Source: Hyunsoonleella pacifica (GTDB taxonomy: Bacteria; Bacteroidota; Bacteroidia; Flavobacteriales; Flavobacteriaceae). Taken from it: a stretch of DNA of 64,000 bases. This document shows positions 31,386-40,469 of this stretch, piece by piece. The DNA is taken from positions 372,001-436,000 of the forward strand of contig NZ_SIRS01000005.1 in assembly GCF_004310335.1 (NCBI RefSeq). Direction: 5' to 3'. Every line of letters begins with the position of its first letter. Position 1 is the stretch's first letter. A model generated the notes under the pieces. That model ran no database searches. It was not told the DNA's origin and saw only the letters and a program-made list of their open reading frames with translations. A program made the position numbers and the translations under genes.

Positions 31386-32060
31386 ATGAGTAAACTATTT
31401 ATAGTACCAACTCCAATAGGGAATTTAAAGGATATGACCTTTAGAGCCGTTGAAGTTTTAAAAGAAGCTGATTTAATTCTAGCTGAAGACACCAGAACTT
31501 CAGGGAAGCTTTTAAAGCATTTTGAAATTACAACCCACATGCAATCTCACCATATGCACAATGAGCATAAAACGGTGGAGCAAATTATACAAAAATTAAA
31601 ATCTGAAACTACGGTTGCACTAATAAGTGATGCTGGAACACCAGCAATTTCAGATCCTGGTTTTTTACTATCTAGAGCTTGTATTGAAAATAATATAGCT
31701 ATTGAATGTTTACCAGGAGCCACTGCCTTTGTGCCAGCACTAGTAAATTCTGGATTACCAAATGATAAGTTTGTATTTGAAGGGTTTTTACCAGTAAAAA
31801 AAGGGCGACAAACCAGATTATTATTGCTTGCTGAAGAAACCAGAACTATAGTTTTTTACGAAAGCCCGCATAAACTTGTTAAAACTCTTGGACATTTTTG
31901 TGAGTATTTTGGAGAAAACCGACTAGTTTCTGTATCCAGAGAGTTAACAAAACTCTACGAAGAGACTGTTCGAGGAACAGCCAAAGAAGTATTTGAATAT
32001 TACACTAATAAACCGCCAAAAGGAGAAATAGTTATTGTTGTAGGTGGAAAAAATAAATAA
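31386..32060 (+). CDS. rsmI: 16S rRNA 2'-O-methyltransferase (cytidine 1402)
   Basis: Methylates the ribose of C1402 in the decoding site of 16S rRNA. Tetrapyrrole-methylase fold, 224 residues, slightly shorter than the 270-290 of many homologues because the C-terminal extension is short. Signatures: MSKLFIVPTPIGNLKDMTFRAVEVLKEADLILAEDTRTS, VALISDAGTPAISDPG (SAM binding) and CLPGATAFVPALVNSGLP. It lies 18 nt after the TetR stop and one base before the HopJ-like gene. Confidence 0.94.
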   Translation: MSKLFIVPTPIGNLKDMTFRAVEVLKEADLILAEDTRTSGKLLKHFEITTHMQSHHMHNEHKTVEQIIQKLKSETTVALISDAGTPAISDPGFLLSRACIENNIAIECLPGATAFVPALVNSGLPNDKFVFEGFLPVKKGRQTRLLLLAEETRTIVFYESPHKLVKTLGHFCEYFGENRLVSVSRELTKLYEETVRGTAKEVFEYYTNKPPKGEIVIVVGGKNK

Positions 32061-32061
32061 A

Positions 32062-32406
32062 ATGAACATAGAAGAATTTAAAAACAAACTTATAAATAAA
32101 CCAACCAAAATTGATTTTTCTGAGACTATGGCTATTATAGACTCTAATTACAATTTTATGCCAACCGCTTTTAAAAACGGAAGTTTAGAAAATGTAACAG
32201 GGCAAAATTCTGGCTCTTGTAAACTATTTGCTTTTGCAAAAGCACAAGGTTTAACAAAAGATGAAACACTTGCCTGTTTTGGTCAGTTTTACTTTGAAGA
32301 TGTGCTAAAAGATCCTGATGGAGACGGGCATCAAAATATTAGAAACTTCATAAAAACAGGTTTTGAAGGTTTGAGTTTTGAAAATAATCCTTTAAAAGAA
32401 AAATAA
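32062..32406 (+). CDS. HopJ-family protein
   Basis: Small cytoplasmic protein of 114 residues matching the HopJ family, named after a Pseudomonas type III effector. Homologues are widespread in free-living bacteria, and no type III secretion genes are present here, so an effector role is unlikely; the real function is unknown. Signatures: FSETMAIIDSNYNFMPTAFKNG, GSCKLFAFAK and HQNIRNFIKTG. A frame starting 18 nt upstream, inside rsmI, would use no ATG; I use the ATG at 32062, one base after the rsmI stop. Confidence 0.85.
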   Translation: MNIEEFKNKLINKPTKIDFSETMAIIDSNYNFMPTAFKNGSLENVTGQNSGSCKLFAFAKAQGLTKDETLACFGQFYFEDVLKDPDGDGHQNIRNFIKTGFEGLSFENNPLKEK

Positions 32407-33076: not shown

Positions 33077-36000
33077 TTAATTCTTAATTTCTAAAGTATT
33101 CCCCGAAATCCAAGTTTTAAACTCATCGCCATAATACAAATAGGCCGTACTTGCAGGTGCTTTGTATCTACCAGCTATATCTGCTTTTAAATCTAAACGG
33201 ATAGTTTTGGTTTCGGAGGCATCAAATTCTCTCCAGTAAAACACTAAATAATTATCAAAAATCTCGTAGTAGGCTACTTTGTTTTGTTCTAAAATCTCTT
33301 TGAGTTGCCAAGGCTGTGGTGTTGCACCAGAAGGTATACCAATAATAGCAGTTACCATACCCAGCTTTTCTACTTTTTTATTTGAAACATTTACGGTCAT
33401 ACTTACATTATCGCCAACATTATATGATGCCTCCGTAATTACAGTTTCTAATTTTAACGGACATTCTCCTGAAGTATCAGGTAAACTACTATCCCACATT
33501 ACATTCAGAGCATAAGGAAATGTAGTTTTAGGGTTATTAAATTTTACAGTAAGTGTTTGATTTCCGTCTGTGATATAATCGGTAATATTAGGAATTGTTA
33601 TTTTTCCATTTTCACTCAAATTCAATTTTTCGTGTAGTATATTCCCTTTTATTACCAGTTCAACAACGTCTTTACTAGTTATTATTTTTTGTTTTTCACG
33701 TTTTGTATAAGCTATTAGTGCTTTTAATGCCATAGCGGTAGATTGTGTAGAACCAAATCGGTTATACTCTCGTTTTCCTACAATATGTTTAATACCCTTT
33801 GAAATTAATGCATCATTATTCGTGTTATCCCGCATTAAGGCTAATAAGGTAAACGCAACTGTTTCAATGTTTTTAGCATTACCATAAGAACGTGTAATTG
33901 TATTGGCTACAGGAAGATCTTGAAAATCGTGTGTTTTAATGTTTTGCTTTATTCTTTTTATTAAAGTTTCAGCATTTTCAATTTGATTTAGATTATAGCT
34001 TGCCAATGCTAAAAGTGCCATTTTGTAAGTGTCGTTACTTTTTAAAGCGTCTTTGTAAGCGGTATTATATTCCAAGCGGAAATCCTCATTTATTTTAGAT
34101 TCGCTCAACGCATAAACAATGTAAGCATTGGCCACATCAATAGGCGAGCTTGCAAAACTATCATACCCTTTTTTGCTTTTTTGGAAACCTCCTTTGCCAT
34201 CTTTTCTGCTCAATAACCATTTTACGGTTCTATCAATCATATTTTGATCCACACCTGTATACACTTCTTTCATTTCAGTAAATTCTAAAATACCATATGC
34301 GGTTAAGGTTTCATGTGGTGGTGTGTGCCCAAACCATTCAAACCCACCTTCCTTGGTTTCAAAACTTATTAAACGCTTATATCCTTTTTTGATAAAACCC
34401 ATCGCCTTTGCCTCAATCTCTGGATTGCTTTTACCTGCTTCTTTTAAATATTTTAACACCATTATATTTGGGTAAGTTGATGACGACGTTTGTTCAAAAC
34501 ACCCGTAAGGTTGCCTAATAAGGCCTTCAATACCATCCATTACATCTCCAATGACATCAGTATAAATATTAAATTCAGCTTTTAAACTATGTTGTACTAC
34601 ATGGTTAATATCAAAGTTGAAAGACTGTGATTTTGAACCTGAAATAGATAACTCAGTTGGAAAATAAGGGCTTAAAATAGTTACATTTCGTTTCACAATA
34701 TCTGTTGCTTCATCTGATTTCAAACTTACCTGAATCGTAGCATTCTCTCCCTTCTTTATAGGTATTACACTTATGTTTTTAATTGCAGTATGTTTAGCTT
34801 TCAAGACCATTTCAGATTCAAAAGGCTTTAAAAGTTTAAGATGCTCTGGTAATAGTAATTTTAAATTAGCAGTAATAGGGCGATCTGTTTCATTAGTTAC
34901 CGAAATTGGTAAAACCACAGTATCATTTAACGCCATATAATTTGGTGCTTTAAAATCTATATTCAATAATTTATTTGTAGCATACAGTGTTTCTTTTCTA
35001 CCTACAAGACCGTCAAATCCAACACCTTCAGCAGTAACTTTAAAAGATGTTATAGCATCAGAATTGTAAAACTCAAATTCAGCTTTTCCATGTTCATCGG
35101 TTTGTACCACAGGATTCCAATAAATGGTTTGTCTAAAATCGGTACGTTCTTCTGGCAAGGTTTTACTATCATATTTAGGCACATAAAACAACTTTGATCT
35201 ATACGTTTTAGGCCCATTATAATCGTAAAAATTTGTTGCCGTATAATTGTTATACTTGGCATTATTTAACTTTTTCTTTCCGTAGTTATAAAAACTATTA
35301 TTCTTTGTTGTAATGATAATTACACCATTAGCCCCTCTACTTCCATAAACAGCTGTTGCTGCTGCATCTTTAAGAACAGATAGATTTTTGATATTGTTTA
35401 GGTCAATATCATTAATATCTTGTACCACCCCATCTACAACAACAAGCGGGTTGCTATTACCACTAAAAGAAGCTGCACCTCTTATAATTACTTTAGAGTT
35501 GTTTCCTGGAAGAAAACCTTCTGATATTGTAACACCAGAAACACGACCTTGTAATGTTCTCGCCAAATCACTATCAATAGAAATTTCTTCGCTTACAACT
35601 TGTGCTACAGCTCCAGTAACTGAGCTTTTTTTCATAGTACCATAACCAATAACAACTACTTCATCTAAAGCATCTACATCTTCTGTTAAGGCAATATTGG
35701 CTGTAACCTCTTGTTTAATTTTAGTTTGCAAAGGTTTATCATTCTTTAAAAAGGCTTTGGATTCTGTTGAGTTGGCTCTAGATGCCGCATTTTTATCATC
35801 ATACATGGTACCTTTTTTAAATTTATCTTTTATAATTTTTAAGGGTTTTCCATCATCAGTATAGGCTACTAATGTTAAGGTTGCCAGTGCTACCGATTTA
35901 AACTGAAACTCTCCTTTATCACTTGTTTTAAATGGTAAAACATTATAACCGTCAGTATTAAATAATAATAGATTTGCTTTTACAGGATTCCCTTTTTTAT

Positions 36001-37633
36001 CTACTACAACCCCAGAATGTAAACCTCTTTTTTCAGGTTTAAAATTGGCATTTTCATAAGTTAAGTTTGGTGTATGTATATAATCTCTCCATCCATGAGT
36101 TAACATCAAATAATCTAACGCTTTATATGATTTAGGCTCTTTTGGATTGAAATAGAATGATGGCTTATGGATGCGTCCTTTTAATTCTGAAGATACTAAC
36201 AGATAAGATAAAATATGGTCTTGCTTGTCATCTGCAAAGGACAGTAATTTGTTATCTGAAATAGCTACGGAAAGATTTGATGGAATGGGAGTTCCCTTAA
36301 AATCTGTAGTAGTTATACTTGCTTTTACCTTTTCTCTTGTTTTATAAACTGATTTATCCAATTGAATATCAACCTTAAGTTGTTTATGAGCATTAAGAAA
36401 CACCAAGCGTTCTGCGACAATGTTGCCATTTATATCTAGTATGCTGAATTTTGAAATACCAATAGGGAAATTTCTAGTATCAATATTGATTACTTTTCTA
36501 GAAGAGTTAATTCTTTTGCTAAAAAGTAGTTTTGAAGCATTAGAAACTTTAATTTGTAAACGTATATTTTCAGTTGAAAATAGTTTTAGTTTTGTGTTTA
36601 AACTATCGGAAATCACTGAAAACCGTGTGCCGTTTTGATGGATTTTAGGAAGTGTAATTTTTCTTTCTGAAACAAAAGGGGTTTTAATTTTAGCATAAAA
36701 GGTATTGTTGTTTTCTGTTGAAATTGTGAACGCACCCATACCATCATGAAAACTATTAAATGTTGAGATAACGTTACCATTGTTGTCCACAATATCTCCA
36801 GAAACATCCACAGGTTTTCCAAATTCATTCAAAGCTTTAAAAGCAACTCTATTTTTTGTGTTGGCAATTAGTTTTCCACTTTCGGGGAAGAACTGTAAAT
36901 CAATATTATCCAAAACCACTGGAACACTTCTGGATATAGACTCAGTAGTGCCATTGTATGGCAATAAAACATTTAAAACAACATCAGTAGTACTCAAATC
37001 TTTTGGGAGTTTAAATGTTGGTGTTGCCTTTCCATCATCATTGGTAACTATTGTTTTCGAAATAATTTTTTTACCCTTTGCAGATACTTCAAACGTAATA
37101 TCTTTATGTTTTAAAGGTTTATTTTTTAAATTTTTAGCTTCAAAATTTGCTGTGACTTCAGAGGATTGTCCATAGCCTTCTTTTTCAAATTTTAAGTTTA
37201 ATAATACATTAGGTTTTACAATTTTTTGAATATTGATTTTCTTTGTGAAAGTTGCTTCATCTCCAAAATTTCGCATCCAATTTGTATAAGTTTTTAGAGT
37301 ATAAATACCGCCAACCCAATTCTTATTAACATGAAAATCGCCATAAGCATAACCATCTTCAACAGAAAGTTTAATCGTTTTTAAAGTAGCGCCCTTAGGA
37401 GATATTAATTTGGCAATCATAATATCACTTACACCAGAAATTGTGTTATCATTAGCTACGATATAAGATTTAAACCAAATGGTTTCTTCTGGAAAATAAA
37501 ATGGACGATCGGTTTGGGTATATATCTTTTCAATAGGTACTTTTTCAGTAAAATATGTTCTAAAAGACATCAATACAATTGCAGTTAGAACGAATAGGAA
37601 TACAGTTGAAATAGAATATATTTTAGTTTTCAT
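33077..37633 (-). CDS. Alpha-2-macroglobulin-like protein with embedded TonB plug domain
   Basis: Envelope protein of 1518 residues. Order by eye: N-terminal signal/anchor (about 1-28, no lipobox); macroglobulin domains (about 30-530, with the MG2-like KIYTQTDRPFYFPEETIWFKSYI at the front); a carboxypeptidase-regulatory-like fold (about 540-615); a TonB box (LDEVVVIGYG, 656-665) and complete SusC-type plug (to ITTKN, 778) with LQGRVSGV, IRGAASFSG, PLVVVDGV, LKDAAATAVYGSRGANGVIII; the A2M core (YWNPVVQTDEHGKAEF, about 850); a thioester motif CFEQ (Cys1045) opening the helical thioester domain (to about 1290); C-terminal beta domains. A2Ms trap proteases. Its gene follows a plugless SusC-like gene by 4 nt. 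Confidence 0.9.
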   Translation of the reverse strand: MKTKIYSISTVFLFVLTAIVLMSFRTYFTEKVPIEKIYTQTDRPFYFPEETIWFKSYIVANDNTISGVSDIMIAKLISPKGATLKTIKLSVEDGYAYGDFHVNKNWVGGIYTLKTYTNWMRNFGDEATFTKKINIQKIVKPNVLLNLKFEKEGYGQSSEVTANFEAKNLKNKPLKHKDITFEVSAKGKKIISKTIVTNDDGKATPTFKLPKDLSTTDVVLNVLLPYNGTTESISRSVPVVLDNIDLQFFPESGKLIANTKNRVAFKALNEFGKPVDVSGDIVDNNGNVISTFNSFHDGMGAFTISTENNNTFYAKIKTPFVSERKITLPKIHQNGTRFSVISDSLNTKLKLFSTENIRLQIKVSNASKLLFSKRINSSRKVINIDTRNFPIGISKFSILDINGNIVAERLVFLNAHKQLKVDIQLDKSVYKTREKVKASITTTDFKGTPIPSNLSVAISDNKLLSFADDKQDHILSYLLVSSELKGRIHKPSFYFNPKEPKSYKALDYLMLTHGWRDYIHTPNLTYENANFKPEKRGLHSGVVVDKKGNPVKANLLLFNTDGYNVLPFKTSDKGEFQFKSVALATLTLVAYTDDGKPLKIIKDKFKKGTMYDDKNAASRANSTESKAFLKNDKPLQTKIKQEVTANIALTEDVDALDEVVVIGYGTMKKSSVTGAVAQVVSEEISIDSDLARTLQGRVSGVTISEGFLPGNNSKVIIRGAASFSGNSNPLVVVDGVVQDINDIDLNNIKNLSVLKDAAATAVYGSRGANGVIIITTKNNSFYNYGKKKLNNAKYNNYTATNFYDYNGPKTYRSKLFYVPKYDSKTLPEERTDFRQTIYWNPVVQTDEHGKAEFEFYNSDAITSFKVTAEGVGFDGLVGRKETLYATNKLLNIDFKAPNYMALNDTVVLPISVTNETDRPITANLKLLLPEHLKLLKPFESEMVLKAKHTAIKNISVIPIKKGENATIQVSLKSDEATDIVKRNVTILSPYFPTELSISGSKSQSFNFDINHVVQHSLKAEFNIYTDVIGDVMDGIEGLIRQPYGCFEQTSSSTYPNIMVLKYLKEAGKSNPEIEAKAMGFIKKGYKRLISFETKEGGFEWFGHTPPHETLTAYGILEFTEMKEVYTGVDQNMIDRTVKWLLSRKDGKGGFQKSKKGYDSFASSPIDVANAYIVYALSESKINEDFRLEYNTAYKDALKSNDTYKMALLALASYNLNQIENAETLIKRIKQNIKTHDFQDLPVANTITRSYGNAKNIETVAFTLLALMRDNTNNDALISKGIKHIVGKREYNRFGSTQSTAMALKALIAYTKREKQKIITSKDVVELVIKGNILHEKLNLSENGKITIPNITDYITDGNQTLTVKFNNPKTTFPYALNVMWDSSLPDTSGECPLKLETVITEASYNVGDNVSMTVNVSNKKVEKLGMVTAIIGIPSGATPQPWQLKEILEQNKVAYYEIFDNYLVFYWREFDASETKTIRLDLKADIAGRYKAPASTAYLYYGDEFKTWISGNTLEIKN

Positions 37634-37637
37634 GAGA

Positions 37638-40469
37638 TTAAATTTTGAAATTGAGTTTTAAACCTACTTCGCTAATTAAAGGTGCGTTAAAAAAGTTGAG
37701 ACCTCTAGCTGAGTTAGTGTTGAAAAGATTACTATATGGAGATGCACCTCTAAATTTTGTCCAAGTGATAAGGTTATTAGCATACAACCCAACTTCTAAA
37801 GTGCGGAGAAATGTATCACGGGCGTTCTTCTTAAAACTATATGTTACATCTATGGATTTTAAATTTACATAGCTACCATCAACAATAGCATCTTCTGCCA
37901 CACCTTCAAATCCATAGCGCACAAATCGGTTCTCTGAAATATCATTATTAGGATTATAAAAATCTACAGGAATCGTGTTTGTGTTTCCTTGGGTATTGAC
38001 GCCGCTGAATATAAAATTACTAATGTTACGGTCATTTGCAGATTGTTGGGAGGTGCCGAAATAGTTTAAAACATTTTGAGTGCCATTCCAAACATCTCCT
38101 CCCTTTTGGAAATCAATTAAAAAGTTAAGTGTGAAATTGTGCAATTTAATATGATTATTAAAACCAATATTGAAACGAGGTATAGGATTACCAATAATTT
38201 TAGATTCAGAAGCCACGACAGGAAAACCATCATTACCTATTATAATGGTATTATTAATATCTCTTTCATAGACAGAACCTATAATAACACCTGCAGGTTG
38301 CCCCTCAATTAGATTTTTGGAAACAGTAGAAAATCCTGCAATAGGAAGGCGGTCGTTTTCTAAAAGTAACTTATTAACTTTTGGACGATATGTTGAGAAT
38401 GTAAGCTTTGGATAATATTTAAAATTATTAGAAAAATTTACATATGAATTTAAATTGATTTCAAAACCATGATTTTTTACATCTGCTACATTTTTGAGCT
38501 GAAATGTATTGTTTTCAAATATTGGAAATATTGTGTTTTTAGTATGCGATCTAAAGTGTGTAATATCAAAATCAAAAGATGCACCCAACGCTCTAAATCC
38601 AAAACCAAAGTTTACATCAAAGCTTTGTTTTTCTTCAAGTAATAGTTGGTTATCAATAAACAAATCGTTAATTGCTCTGTAGCTTAAGCTTTCCTCTGGG
38701 CGGATATTTAAACTATTATGGCTGAGGTTGCCATACAGCAAAGACGCATCGTTTATATCATAAGCAGTACCCGCAGAAATATAAATATTGTAAAAGTCAT
38801 AAACATTAATAATATCGTCTATTCTCCATTTTACTTGTAGTGTTGGTAAAAACCATTTATTATTTTGAATGGAGGATAGGTAGGAGTTATTGGTAAGTCC
38901 CACGACAAGCATATCATAATCTGATTTGAAAATGATTTTGTTTTGTAAGCGTAATATATTTCTATGTAAGTGTCGTTGATTTAATGAGTTCTCCTGTTCA
39001 TCATTAAAAGTAAAAGCGTCAAATCCTTCTGCCTGAAATAAGGTGTATTTTAAGTCTTCAAATAAGGCATCTGCTTTTGAAATAAAATCGATTTTAGAGT
39101 CATTGATTTTTGTTTTGAAATTGAAATCAACTGAGGCGTTAAAGTTATTTTTATCTACAGTTCTATCACTTAAATACCCGTTTTCAAAACCATTAGTGTT
39201 TTTAACAAGACCAAAATGTTGCGCATTTTTAAAATTACTATAGTTTACCTTGGTAAGTATTGAAATAGCCTCAGAGACATATAATGTATTGTTTAAGCTC
39301 GTTATAAAATGGGTGTTCTTTTCTGAATTTCGATTGTGTTTTAATAACCACTCAGGGTTATTAAATTGACTTGGGCTAAAACTACGCTGAGAGTCATCCA
39401 GTAGCTTATCTCCTTGTGTATTTTCAAAACTAGGTGGCGTTACCCATGTATTTAAAAGTAAATTATTCTGAAACCCGTTAATGTTGGGTTGATTATTGTC
39501 TTGGTTACCAAATTTAACAAAGACATTCCATGACACTTTTTTACCATTAGCCCTTTTCTCATAGTTAAATAACACATTGTTGGAAGTACTTCTTTCAACA
39601 TCGTATAAATCTTTTTGAGATGTATTAGTAACATCAAACTTAAAGGATTCTACATCTGTACTAATATTAAAAAAAGCATTATGAGTTGATTTTATACTCG
39701 TATTAAAAATGGTATTTTCATAAGTATTTGCTGGTACACCATTTCCATCGCCTATACCAACTAATTTACCATTAATATCAAAGCTGTAATTATTACCATC
39801 AAACTCTAATACATTTAATTGAGGTCCATACGAAAACACATTGCCAGTTTCTGGACCTTGAAACACAAATGCACCGTTATTTGAAAGCCCTTGACTATAT
39901 CTCGTTTGTAATGCCGGTAGATTGCTGGATTGTACAAACTGAAAACTATTTATTGTTTTTAAACCAACTTCAAAGTAAATATCAGGATCAAAATATGAAA
40001 GTTTTACCTTGTCTTTTTGAACATCTATAGTTTTGATACGGTTATATTGAAAGTATGAGTTTCTATTATAGGTTTTATCCGAATCAACAATTGAAGGAAT
40101 TGAAAAGGCATCTTTTTTTAGATTTTTAACTGCATCTTTATAGGCTTTACTCTTTATATCTTTAACTGGGACTTTTAGTTTAGAAGAGATATCTGAAGTG
40201 TCTTTGAACATATTTTCAGTAACAGTAACCTCCTGCGTTTTAAAACCGATATAATTAAATTTAAGAATATCTCCTACCTTACATGAAATACTATAATTAC
40301 CATCAAAATCTGTGGAAACACCTATTGAAGTGCCTTTAATCGTAATGTTTACCCCAGGAATAGGAATACCTTCACTATCTTCTAAAACTCCAGATACAAC
40401 TCCCTGTTGTGCAAATACTGCAAAAGGCACCAATAAAAAGAATAGTGTTTTGGTTAGTTGTGTTTTCAT
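37638..40469 (-). CDS. SusC-like outer-membrane barrel lacking its plug domain
   Basis: Protein of 943 residues: signal peptide (1-20, ending VFAQQ), carboxypeptidase-regulatory domain (about 22-103: GVVSGVLEDSEGIPIPGVNI and FNYIGFKTQEVTVTE), then directly barrel sequence, including LPALQTRYSQGLSNNGAFVFQGP, a segment that in SusC proteins follows the plug. No TonB box, VVDG or AAAIYGSRG signatures of a plug are present. The C-terminus (ISEVGLKLNFKI) is a normal last barrel strand. No SusD gene is adjacent. It is the first gene of a two-gene operon with the macroglobulin that carries a plug, so the two products are likely to work as one receptor. Confidence 0.88.
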   Translation of the reverse strand: MKTQLTKTLFFLLVPFAVFAQQGVVSGVLEDSEGIPIPGVNITIKGTSIGVSTDFDGNYSISCKVGDILKFNYIGFKTQEVTVTENMFKDTSDISSKLKVPVKDIKSKAYKDAVKNLKKDAFSIPSIVDSDKTYNRNSYFQYNRIKTIDVQKDKVKLSYFDPDIYFEVGLKTINSFQFVQSSNLPALQTRYSQGLSNNGAFVFQGPETGNVFSYGPQLNVLEFDGNNYSFDINGKLVGIGDGNGVPANTYENTIFNTSIKSTHNAFFNISTDVESFKFDVTNTSQKDLYDVERSTSNNVLFNYEKRANGKKVSWNVFVKFGNQDNNQPNINGFQNNLLLNTWVTPPSFENTQGDKLLDDSQRSFSPSQFNNPEWLLKHNRNSEKNTHFITSLNNTLYVSEAISILTKVNYSNFKNAQHFGLVKNTNGFENGYLSDRTVDKNNFNASVDFNFKTKINDSKIDFISKADALFEDLKYTLFQAEGFDAFTFNDEQENSLNQRHLHRNILRLQNKIIFKSDYDMLVVGLTNNSYLSSIQNNKWFLPTLQVKWRIDDIINVYDFYNIYISAGTAYDINDASLLYGNLSHNSLNIRPEESLSYRAINDLFIDNQLLLEEKQSFDVNFGFGFRALGASFDFDITHFRSHTKNTIFPIFENNTFQLKNVADVKNHGFEINLNSYVNFSNNFKYYPKLTFSTYRPKVNKLLLENDRLPIAGFSTVSKNLIEGQPAGVIIGSVYERDINNTIIIGNDGFPVVASESKIIGNPIPRFNIGFNNHIKLHNFTLNFLIDFQKGGDVWNGTQNVLNYFGTSQQSANDRNISNFIFSGVNTQGNTNTIPVDFYNPNNDISENRFVRYGFEGVAEDAIVDGSYVNLKSIDVTYSFKKNARDTFLRTLEVGLYANNLITWTKFRGASPYSNLFNTNSARGLNFFNAPLISEVGLKLNFKI

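Follow-up and report, generated by a model that had tools for sequence, protein, structure and literature searches.

The window analysed here, a 64,000-nucleotide stretch of the Hyunsoonleella pacifica genome, contains a pair of minus-strand genes that lie 4 nt apart (taa TCTC atg). The upstream gene encodes a SusC-type barrel protein that has no plug, and the gene downstream of it encodes an alpha-2-macroglobulin (A2M)-like protein that carries a SusC plug (Table 1). The SusC model TIGR04056 is shared out between the two products: residues 635-790 of the A2M match model positions 57-214 (E 2.1e-56), and residues 175-942 of the barrel match positions 218-980 (E 6.2e-51). Against a cut-off of 368.25 bits, the A2M alone scores 191.9 and the barrel alone 173.8, both below it.

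Table 1. Features of the two genes, with residues of the encoded proteins and positions in the window.
Feature	Residues	Window position	Strand	Basis
Plugless SusC-type barrel gene	943 aa (P0002)	37638..40469	-	Pfam, TIGR04056, AlphaFold2, tree
N-terminal extension (CarbopepD_reg_2)	Barrel 26-86	40212..40394	-	Pfam, E 9.1e-14
Linker in the plug's place	Barrel 90-140	40050..40202	-	AlphaFold2; model gap versus full-length SusC
Beta-barrel	Barrel 175-942	37644..39947	-	TIGR04056 218-980; Foldseek 5fq6_D
A2M-like gene carrying SusC plug	1518 aa (P0001)	33077..37633	-	Pfam, TIGR04056, profile alignment
MG2 domain	A2M 36-121	37271..37528	-	Pfam, E 3.1e-11
CarboxypepD_reg-like domain	A2M 540-591	35861..36016	-	Below Pfam cut-off, 22.6 vs 32.3 bits
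Flexible linker before TonB box (possible bait, putative role)	A2M 600-655	35669..35836	-	Low pLDDT, least conserved
Putative TonB box LDEVVV	A2M 656-661	35651..35668	-	Motif class of Bt1763 VDEVVV
SusC plug domain	A2M 669-771	35321..35629	-	Pfam Plug, E 4.5e-13
Flexible linker after plug (possible bait, putative role)	A2M 780-830	35144..35296	-	Partly low pLDDT
A2M domain (post-bait)	A2M 836-925	34859..35128	-	Pfam, E 2e-08
Thioester-containing (TED) domain	A2M 1023-1309	33707..34567	-	Pfam, E 6.1e-34
Thioester motif GCFEQ	A2M 1044-1048	34490..34504	-	Motif match
bMG10-like C-terminal domain	A2M 1403-1504	33122..33427	-	Pfam, below cut-off

A preliminary description of this locus, made from the sequence alone, had held that the barrel protein is short in just the place of the plug. 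This was borne out. The window's barrel has no Plug match in Pfam at E<=10, its sole matches being carboxypeptidase-regulatory domains in the N-terminal extension, and its TIGR04056 match starts at model position 218. In the AlphaFold2 model, which has a mean pLDDT of 87.9, the linker at about residues 90-140 is mostly coil, with block pLDDT values of 35-50. We scanned 51 barrels with Pfam, namely the window's own and 50 of the 77 from the genome-collection scan described below. None of the 51 matches Plug at E<=1, 49 match TIGR04056 at E<=0.01, and the CarbopepD_reg_2 extension was matched in 34. The window's plug, compared directly with 55 split barrels, gave no match at E<=1. The closest solved structure by profile is BT_2264 (5fq6_B, E 2.6e-48), and the closest fold by Foldseek is 5fq6_D (E 1.8e-45, TM 0.67). 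A full-length SusC relative of the same BT2264 type, L174 (1050 aa; 5fq6_B, E 2.2e-106), has plug matches at 89-243, in the very region that the split-barrel model skips between its positions 84 and 144. Weak BamP matches in eight of the 51 barrels were taken as marking the N-terminal extension only, because the same match in L174 falls on that extension.

The downstream protein was also as first described, an A2M with a TonB box and a plug, each identified in its expected order (Table 1); the SusC signature TIGR04057 additionally matches residues 748-777. When the window's A2M and 29 of the best 80 relatives were scanned with Pfam, all 30 matched Plug (E<=0.01) and 16 matched the bait-region family A2M_BRD. 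From position 834 onward the A2M profile aligns to 6tav, an alpha-2-macroglobulin chain, starting at residue 727, with the PYGC(F/G)EQ motifs aligned to each other, and the linker at 780-830 comes directly before the stretch that aligns with the post-bait region of A2M. Because the human bait region, which we take to span about residues 690-728 in alpha-2-macroglobulin numbering, corresponds to this place, the plug and both of its linkers occupy the bait slot. Among the stretches measured, residues 595-650 have the lowest mean identity (26% and 22% in two sets of relatives); in these sets the plug has 45% and about 41-42%, versus 55% and 51% for the whole A2M. Several MG stretches are conserved about as well as the plug and the linkers less so, with the linker before the TonB box varying most, as expected of a bait. 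An AlphaFold2 model of residues 415-1010, with no barrel present, has a mean pLDDT of 64.8, most MG parts being good and the plug in the middle poor. Isolated plugs of other receptors are partly unfolded, and the poor prediction may reflect such disorder or a shallow alignment.

To what extent is this arrangement conserved? The genome-collection scan, the query of which itself carried the plug, returned 126 relatives, and the counts that follow refer to the best 80 of these. A plug-bearing A2M is found in all 80, with the L132 gene lying in two ORFs. The GCFEQ motif lies within the plug-bearing ORF in 79, the exception being L132, where the TED is on the second ORF; a short TonB-box pattern is found at the aligned slot in 79 sequences, and no more than three have an approximate lipobox pattern close to the N-terminus. 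At 77 of the 80 loci there is an upstream barrel ORF on the same strand without a plug match, within 300 nt in 76 and mostly at a gap of 2-6 nt. The barrel of L130 is 1,199 nt away, and that of L113 has a broken frame. Two of the three loci without a barrel are at contig ends (L106 and L118). L133 has a plug-bearing A2M, and no barrel was found in the 996 bp upstream of it or elsewhere in the draft genome (E<=1e-40). The hosts include the Flavobacteriaceae Winogradskyella, Psychroserpens, Aquimarina, Kordia, Tenacibaculum, Dokdonia, Maribacter and others, and beyond this family Saprospiraceae, Chitinophagaceae and a Roseivirga. Across 120 genomes of the same family, the source genome included, the A2M is present at full length in seven and truncated at the end of a contig in an eighth; all eight have a barrel ORF directly upstream, whole in seven and running to 491 residues on the contig in L016. 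Viral contigs yielded 72 stretches that matched the pattern in one scan, none of which was confirmed as a relative.

Since the query of the first scan carried the plug, we also surveyed 392 genomes of the phylum with a plug-blind profile (A5, A2M residues 826-1516 behind the plug, E<=1e-60). The A2M was found in five, four of which have the plug and an adjacent barrel without a plug match. The fifth, L170, has two CarboxypepD repeats in the plug's place, with neither plug nor barrel. This locus (L170:6174-10880) encodes a thioester A2M whose slot contains a long linker along with the two carboxypeptidase-regulatory repeats, and no barrel match adjoins it; 98 genomes of its class held no further case like it. 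A barrel profile run against 392 phylum genomes drawn likewise gave as its best four matches the same four genomes with the pair. Its other eight matches were ORFs of 1059-1128 aa, and all six of those that were fetched (L174-L179) have plug matches. The barrel and the A2M thus show joint presence or absence in the phylum sample. An assembly or frameshift artefact was rejected, as the split recurs at 77 of the best 80 of 126 loci and again in three other genomes from the phylum sample.

Distances in the two proteins go together, those of the barrel and of the A2M body being correlated with r 0.91 over 67 pairs in a mirror-tree comparison (0.82 in the 45 Flavobacteriaceae-type pairs and 0.91 in the 22 others). 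For the plug and the barrel the correlation is only 0.49 over the 67 pairs, and 0.13 as a partial correlation given the A2M body, which indicates no special link. Other A2M windows of the same size gave partial correlations of -0.33 to 0.21, and in the Flavobacteriaceae-type subset the plug gave 0.16 and other windows up to 0.41. The plug therefore tracks the barrel no better than many other A2M segments do. Taken as a whole, the complementary halves of TIGR04056, the distribution of Plug over barrels (0 of 51) and A2Ms (30 of 30), the close adjacency, the joint presence or absence and the correlation of the two proteins strongly support the original proposal that a single operon encodes an entire receptor in two parts.

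In a tree of barrels, obtained by a quick search with SH-aLRT support only and with several long branches, a single branch (SH-aLRT 98) sets off the 55 split barrels, which stand beside BT2264-type SusC and next to L174-L179. As the split barrels group on one branch next to these proteins, and the plug of L174 fills the gap in the split-barrel model, the barrel seems to derive from a SusC by a single loss of the plug. The two Dokdonia barrels, L089 and L093, are about 800 residues long and sit on a long common branch, and their paired plugs start unlike most of the family. The plug tree, which has few columns, places the A2M plugs near mainstream SusC plugs, with those of L061, L062, L064, L072 and L082 beside an ordinary SusC. 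Approximately unbiased (AU) tests did not reject a single clade of A2M plugs (p 0.417), nor a grouping in which these are joined by the L138 plug and by plugs of the BT2264 type (p 0.296). A chimeric origin with plug exchange was dropped, since these tests reject neither alternative.

The surroundings of the pair point to two genes as the unit. Around 76 loci the flanking genes form 231 groups, of which five span both kinds of loci, each through one Chitinophaga-type locus; because so few groups join the two sets of loci, we regard the two genes themselves as the unit. Some housekeeping genes recur beside Flavobacteriaceae-type loci (at up to 21 loci), and no widely shared third gene was found across the 76. 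In the window, a domain scan of nine neighbouring genes found neither a SusD-type domain, in agreement with the preliminary description, which had listed no accompanying SusD gene, nor pbpC, the gene for PBP1c. Amid ordinary housekeeping genes, positions 32044-32406 encode a small protein that matches the HopJ-type domain PF08888 (E 1.6e-47).

The explanation that we consider best, and think fairly probable, makes the A2M both the trans-acting plug of the barrel and a protease trap docked beneath the outer membrane. Its parts differ in strength. The sequences show directly that plug and barrel are split, that the split is conserved and its halves are complementary, and that the motifs of TonB box and thioester are intact. 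Judged from the families of the two proteins, plugging of the barrel by the A2M is very likely; protease trapping, which is suggested by families and motifs, has slightly better than even chances in our estimate. TonB-driven triggering or reloading of the trap would be speculative, and we lean against it.

Another way to read the pair is as a nutrient importer rather than a defence system, in which a BT2264-type barrel would take in peptides or proteins, the A2M would serve as their periplasmic receiver and TonB would pull the plug. The kinship of the barrel with BT2264-type SusC, which holds by profile, tree and fold, fits an importer, as does the retained TonB box. Neither a SusD-type domain among the nine window neighbours nor a widely shared third gene is there to complete it, however, and the thioester motif, found in 79 of the best 80 of 126 relatives, argues for covalent capture. 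We therefore hold an importer to be unlikely.

SusC pieces also occur in other macroglobulins. A second A2M family, with about 2000-2240 residues, is present in 46 of 247 genomes, and the source genome also carries a sequence of this family (G000:C33:21310-23646). Among 30 of its loci that we examined (L209-L238), 28 have a CxEQ motif, and the plug profile matches ten and finds nothing in 20. The content of the slot varies: an extension with a TonB-box region and a plug fragment in L209, L222, L231 and L234; the rear part of the plug only in L223, L224 and L226; and a whole SusC module in L210, L229 and L230, with L138 as a further whole module. In L212 the extension is present together with LEEVVV, which resembles a TonB box, and the plug profile gives no match. 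None of eight neighbourhoods examined for this family, four of them with a whole plug, contains a barrel match. A family of shorter MG proteins (L046-L057 and L145-L169), mostly of 820-970 residues with some of 1,230-1,340, has no TED match; among five scanned with Pfam, Plug scores above its cut-off in three, below it in one and not at all in the fifth. In two of these proteins the TIGR04056 match starts only at positions 102 and 112, in the rear plug region. No barrel match was found in the 12 neighbourhoods fetched for this family (L046-L057). The preliminary description had counted on homologues of the macroglobulin being accompanied by the barrel. For full-length homologues this stood, as they nearly always have one; it did not extend to these two other MG/A2M families, which carry whole or partial plugs with no barrel in the neighbourhoods examined. 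A plug in a bait slot is thus not always a sign of a split receptor, since the second family has whole plugs without barrel neighbours, and bait slots may be where TonB-box modules preferentially land.

These families lend some weight to the idea that the plug segment of the pair is itself a bait or decoy, with the neighbouring barrel closed by something else, a genuine rival although we find it improbable. Bait slots would gain N-terminal pieces of SusC by recombination and use them as protease-sensitive sequence, a course of events to which we give equally low credence. It would agree with the second family, whose members hold none, part or all of the SusC module with no barrel in any of eight neighbourhoods, with the two short MG proteins that match only the rear plug region, and with the plug of the main family being less conserved than the A2M average. 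Against it, the plug is kept in all of the best 80 of 126 relatives and in all 30 A2Ms scanned with Pfam, and the partner barrel is plugless in every case tested, which a pure bait would not need. Very improbable, finally, is that the A2M never meets the barrel, which would be open or closed by others with adjacency reflecting co-regulation: the mirror-tree distances and the model of the A2M segment give no sign of contact, but near-constant adjacency, joint presence or absence and the complementary halves of TIGR04056 speak against it, as does the very large hole that an unplugged SusC barrel would leave.

How, then, might a barrel plugged in trans by an A2M work? Both gene products would form one outer-membrane complex, with the upstream protein folding as a plugless SusC-type barrel. 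An empty SusC barrel is a very large hole, so something must close it. The A2M, once exported to the periplasm, would insert its SusC plug into the barrel from below. Since a SusC plug has its two ends on the periplasmic side, the A2M can hang below the membrane with no chain crossing it, and the pore would be closed in trans with the A2M docked beneath the outer membrane on two flexible tethers. The plug, flanked by flexible linkers, would fill the bait-region slot. A protease reaching the periplasm via the barrel or through damaged membrane would then cut a linker, which would set the A2M loose from its plug and uncover the thioester to form a bond with the protease; by arithmetic, a cut in the linker at 780-830 would leave a C-terminal piece of about 79 kDa. 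TonB would grip the box before the plug, so that barrel opening and trap handling may be coupled. Carried further, the complex could be an energised immune gate, in which TonB and the proton motive force pull on the slot, open the barrel and trigger or reset the thioester trap beneath it. The same tentative reading, to which we assign a minor chance, would make the bait slot of Bacteroidota A2Ms a recurrent landing site for TonB-box modules.

TonB-dependent receptors are treated as one chain in which plug and barrel are joined. That a split occurs naturally and is conserved suggests that a different protein can supply the plug. It also opens the exit and re-entry of the plug to direct tests, with a bearing on how these receptors open. 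For a bacterial macroglobulin, the pair suggests a likely cellular location, namely beneath a named outer-membrane pore, and bait regions emerge as a suggested site of recruitment for TonB-coupled modules. If the trap should prove to be TonB-driven, the system would be categorically new.

How does the pair compare with known systems? Laboratory-split FhuA likewise has plug and barrel on separate polypeptides: Braun and colleagues reportedly found in 2003 that cork and barrel made as separate chains reassemble in vivo. That split was artificial, however, and the plug was not fused to another protein. The preliminary description knew of no characterised system of this kind, and the literature agrees as far as it was covered, with neither a naturally split TonB receptor nor a plug-bearing macroglobulin found among the matches listed from full-text articles, a body that excludes preprints and most subscription journals; PMC12578637 had nothing on the subject either. 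In Flavobacterium johnsoniae, BamP sits in the lumen of the BamA barrel (PMC12611786), which is again a separate protein in an outer-membrane barrel of the same phylum, but BamP is no TonB plug and BamA no TonB receptor. A TonB receptor is reported to be required for the secretion of the protease PopC (PMC6434023).

The closest comparisons are with SusC and with Type I A2Ms. All parts of a SusC/RagA protein (TIGR04056) of the BT2264 type (5fq6), namely extension, TonB box, plug and barrel, are present over the two genes. In SusC/RagA, however, plug and barrel are in one chain, whereas here the plug and the putative TonB box are on a second polypeptide; and in SusCD complexes the SusD lipoprotein gene lies beside susC, whereas there is none in the nine window neighbours. 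The TonB box of Bt1763, VDEVVV, was tested and shown to matter, and SusC plugs have been displaced from the barrel in vitro (PMC7782687). With Type I A2Ms such as E. coli YfhM/ECAM and Salmonella Sa-A2M, the A2M of the pair has in common the MG domains, the TED with its CxEQ motif and the post-bait A2M domain. According to PMC5764988, Type I A2Ms trap proteases upon a cut in the bait, Sa-A2M keeps the protease on the smaller, 77-kDa product, and Type I A2M genes often adjoin the PBP1c gene (pbpC). Here, in contrast, the bait slot holds linker, plug and linker, and the neighbour is a barrel and not PBP1c. The pair is thus built from two known kinds of protein, lacking the single chain of SusC and the neighbour of SusCD and altering the bait part of a Type I A2M.
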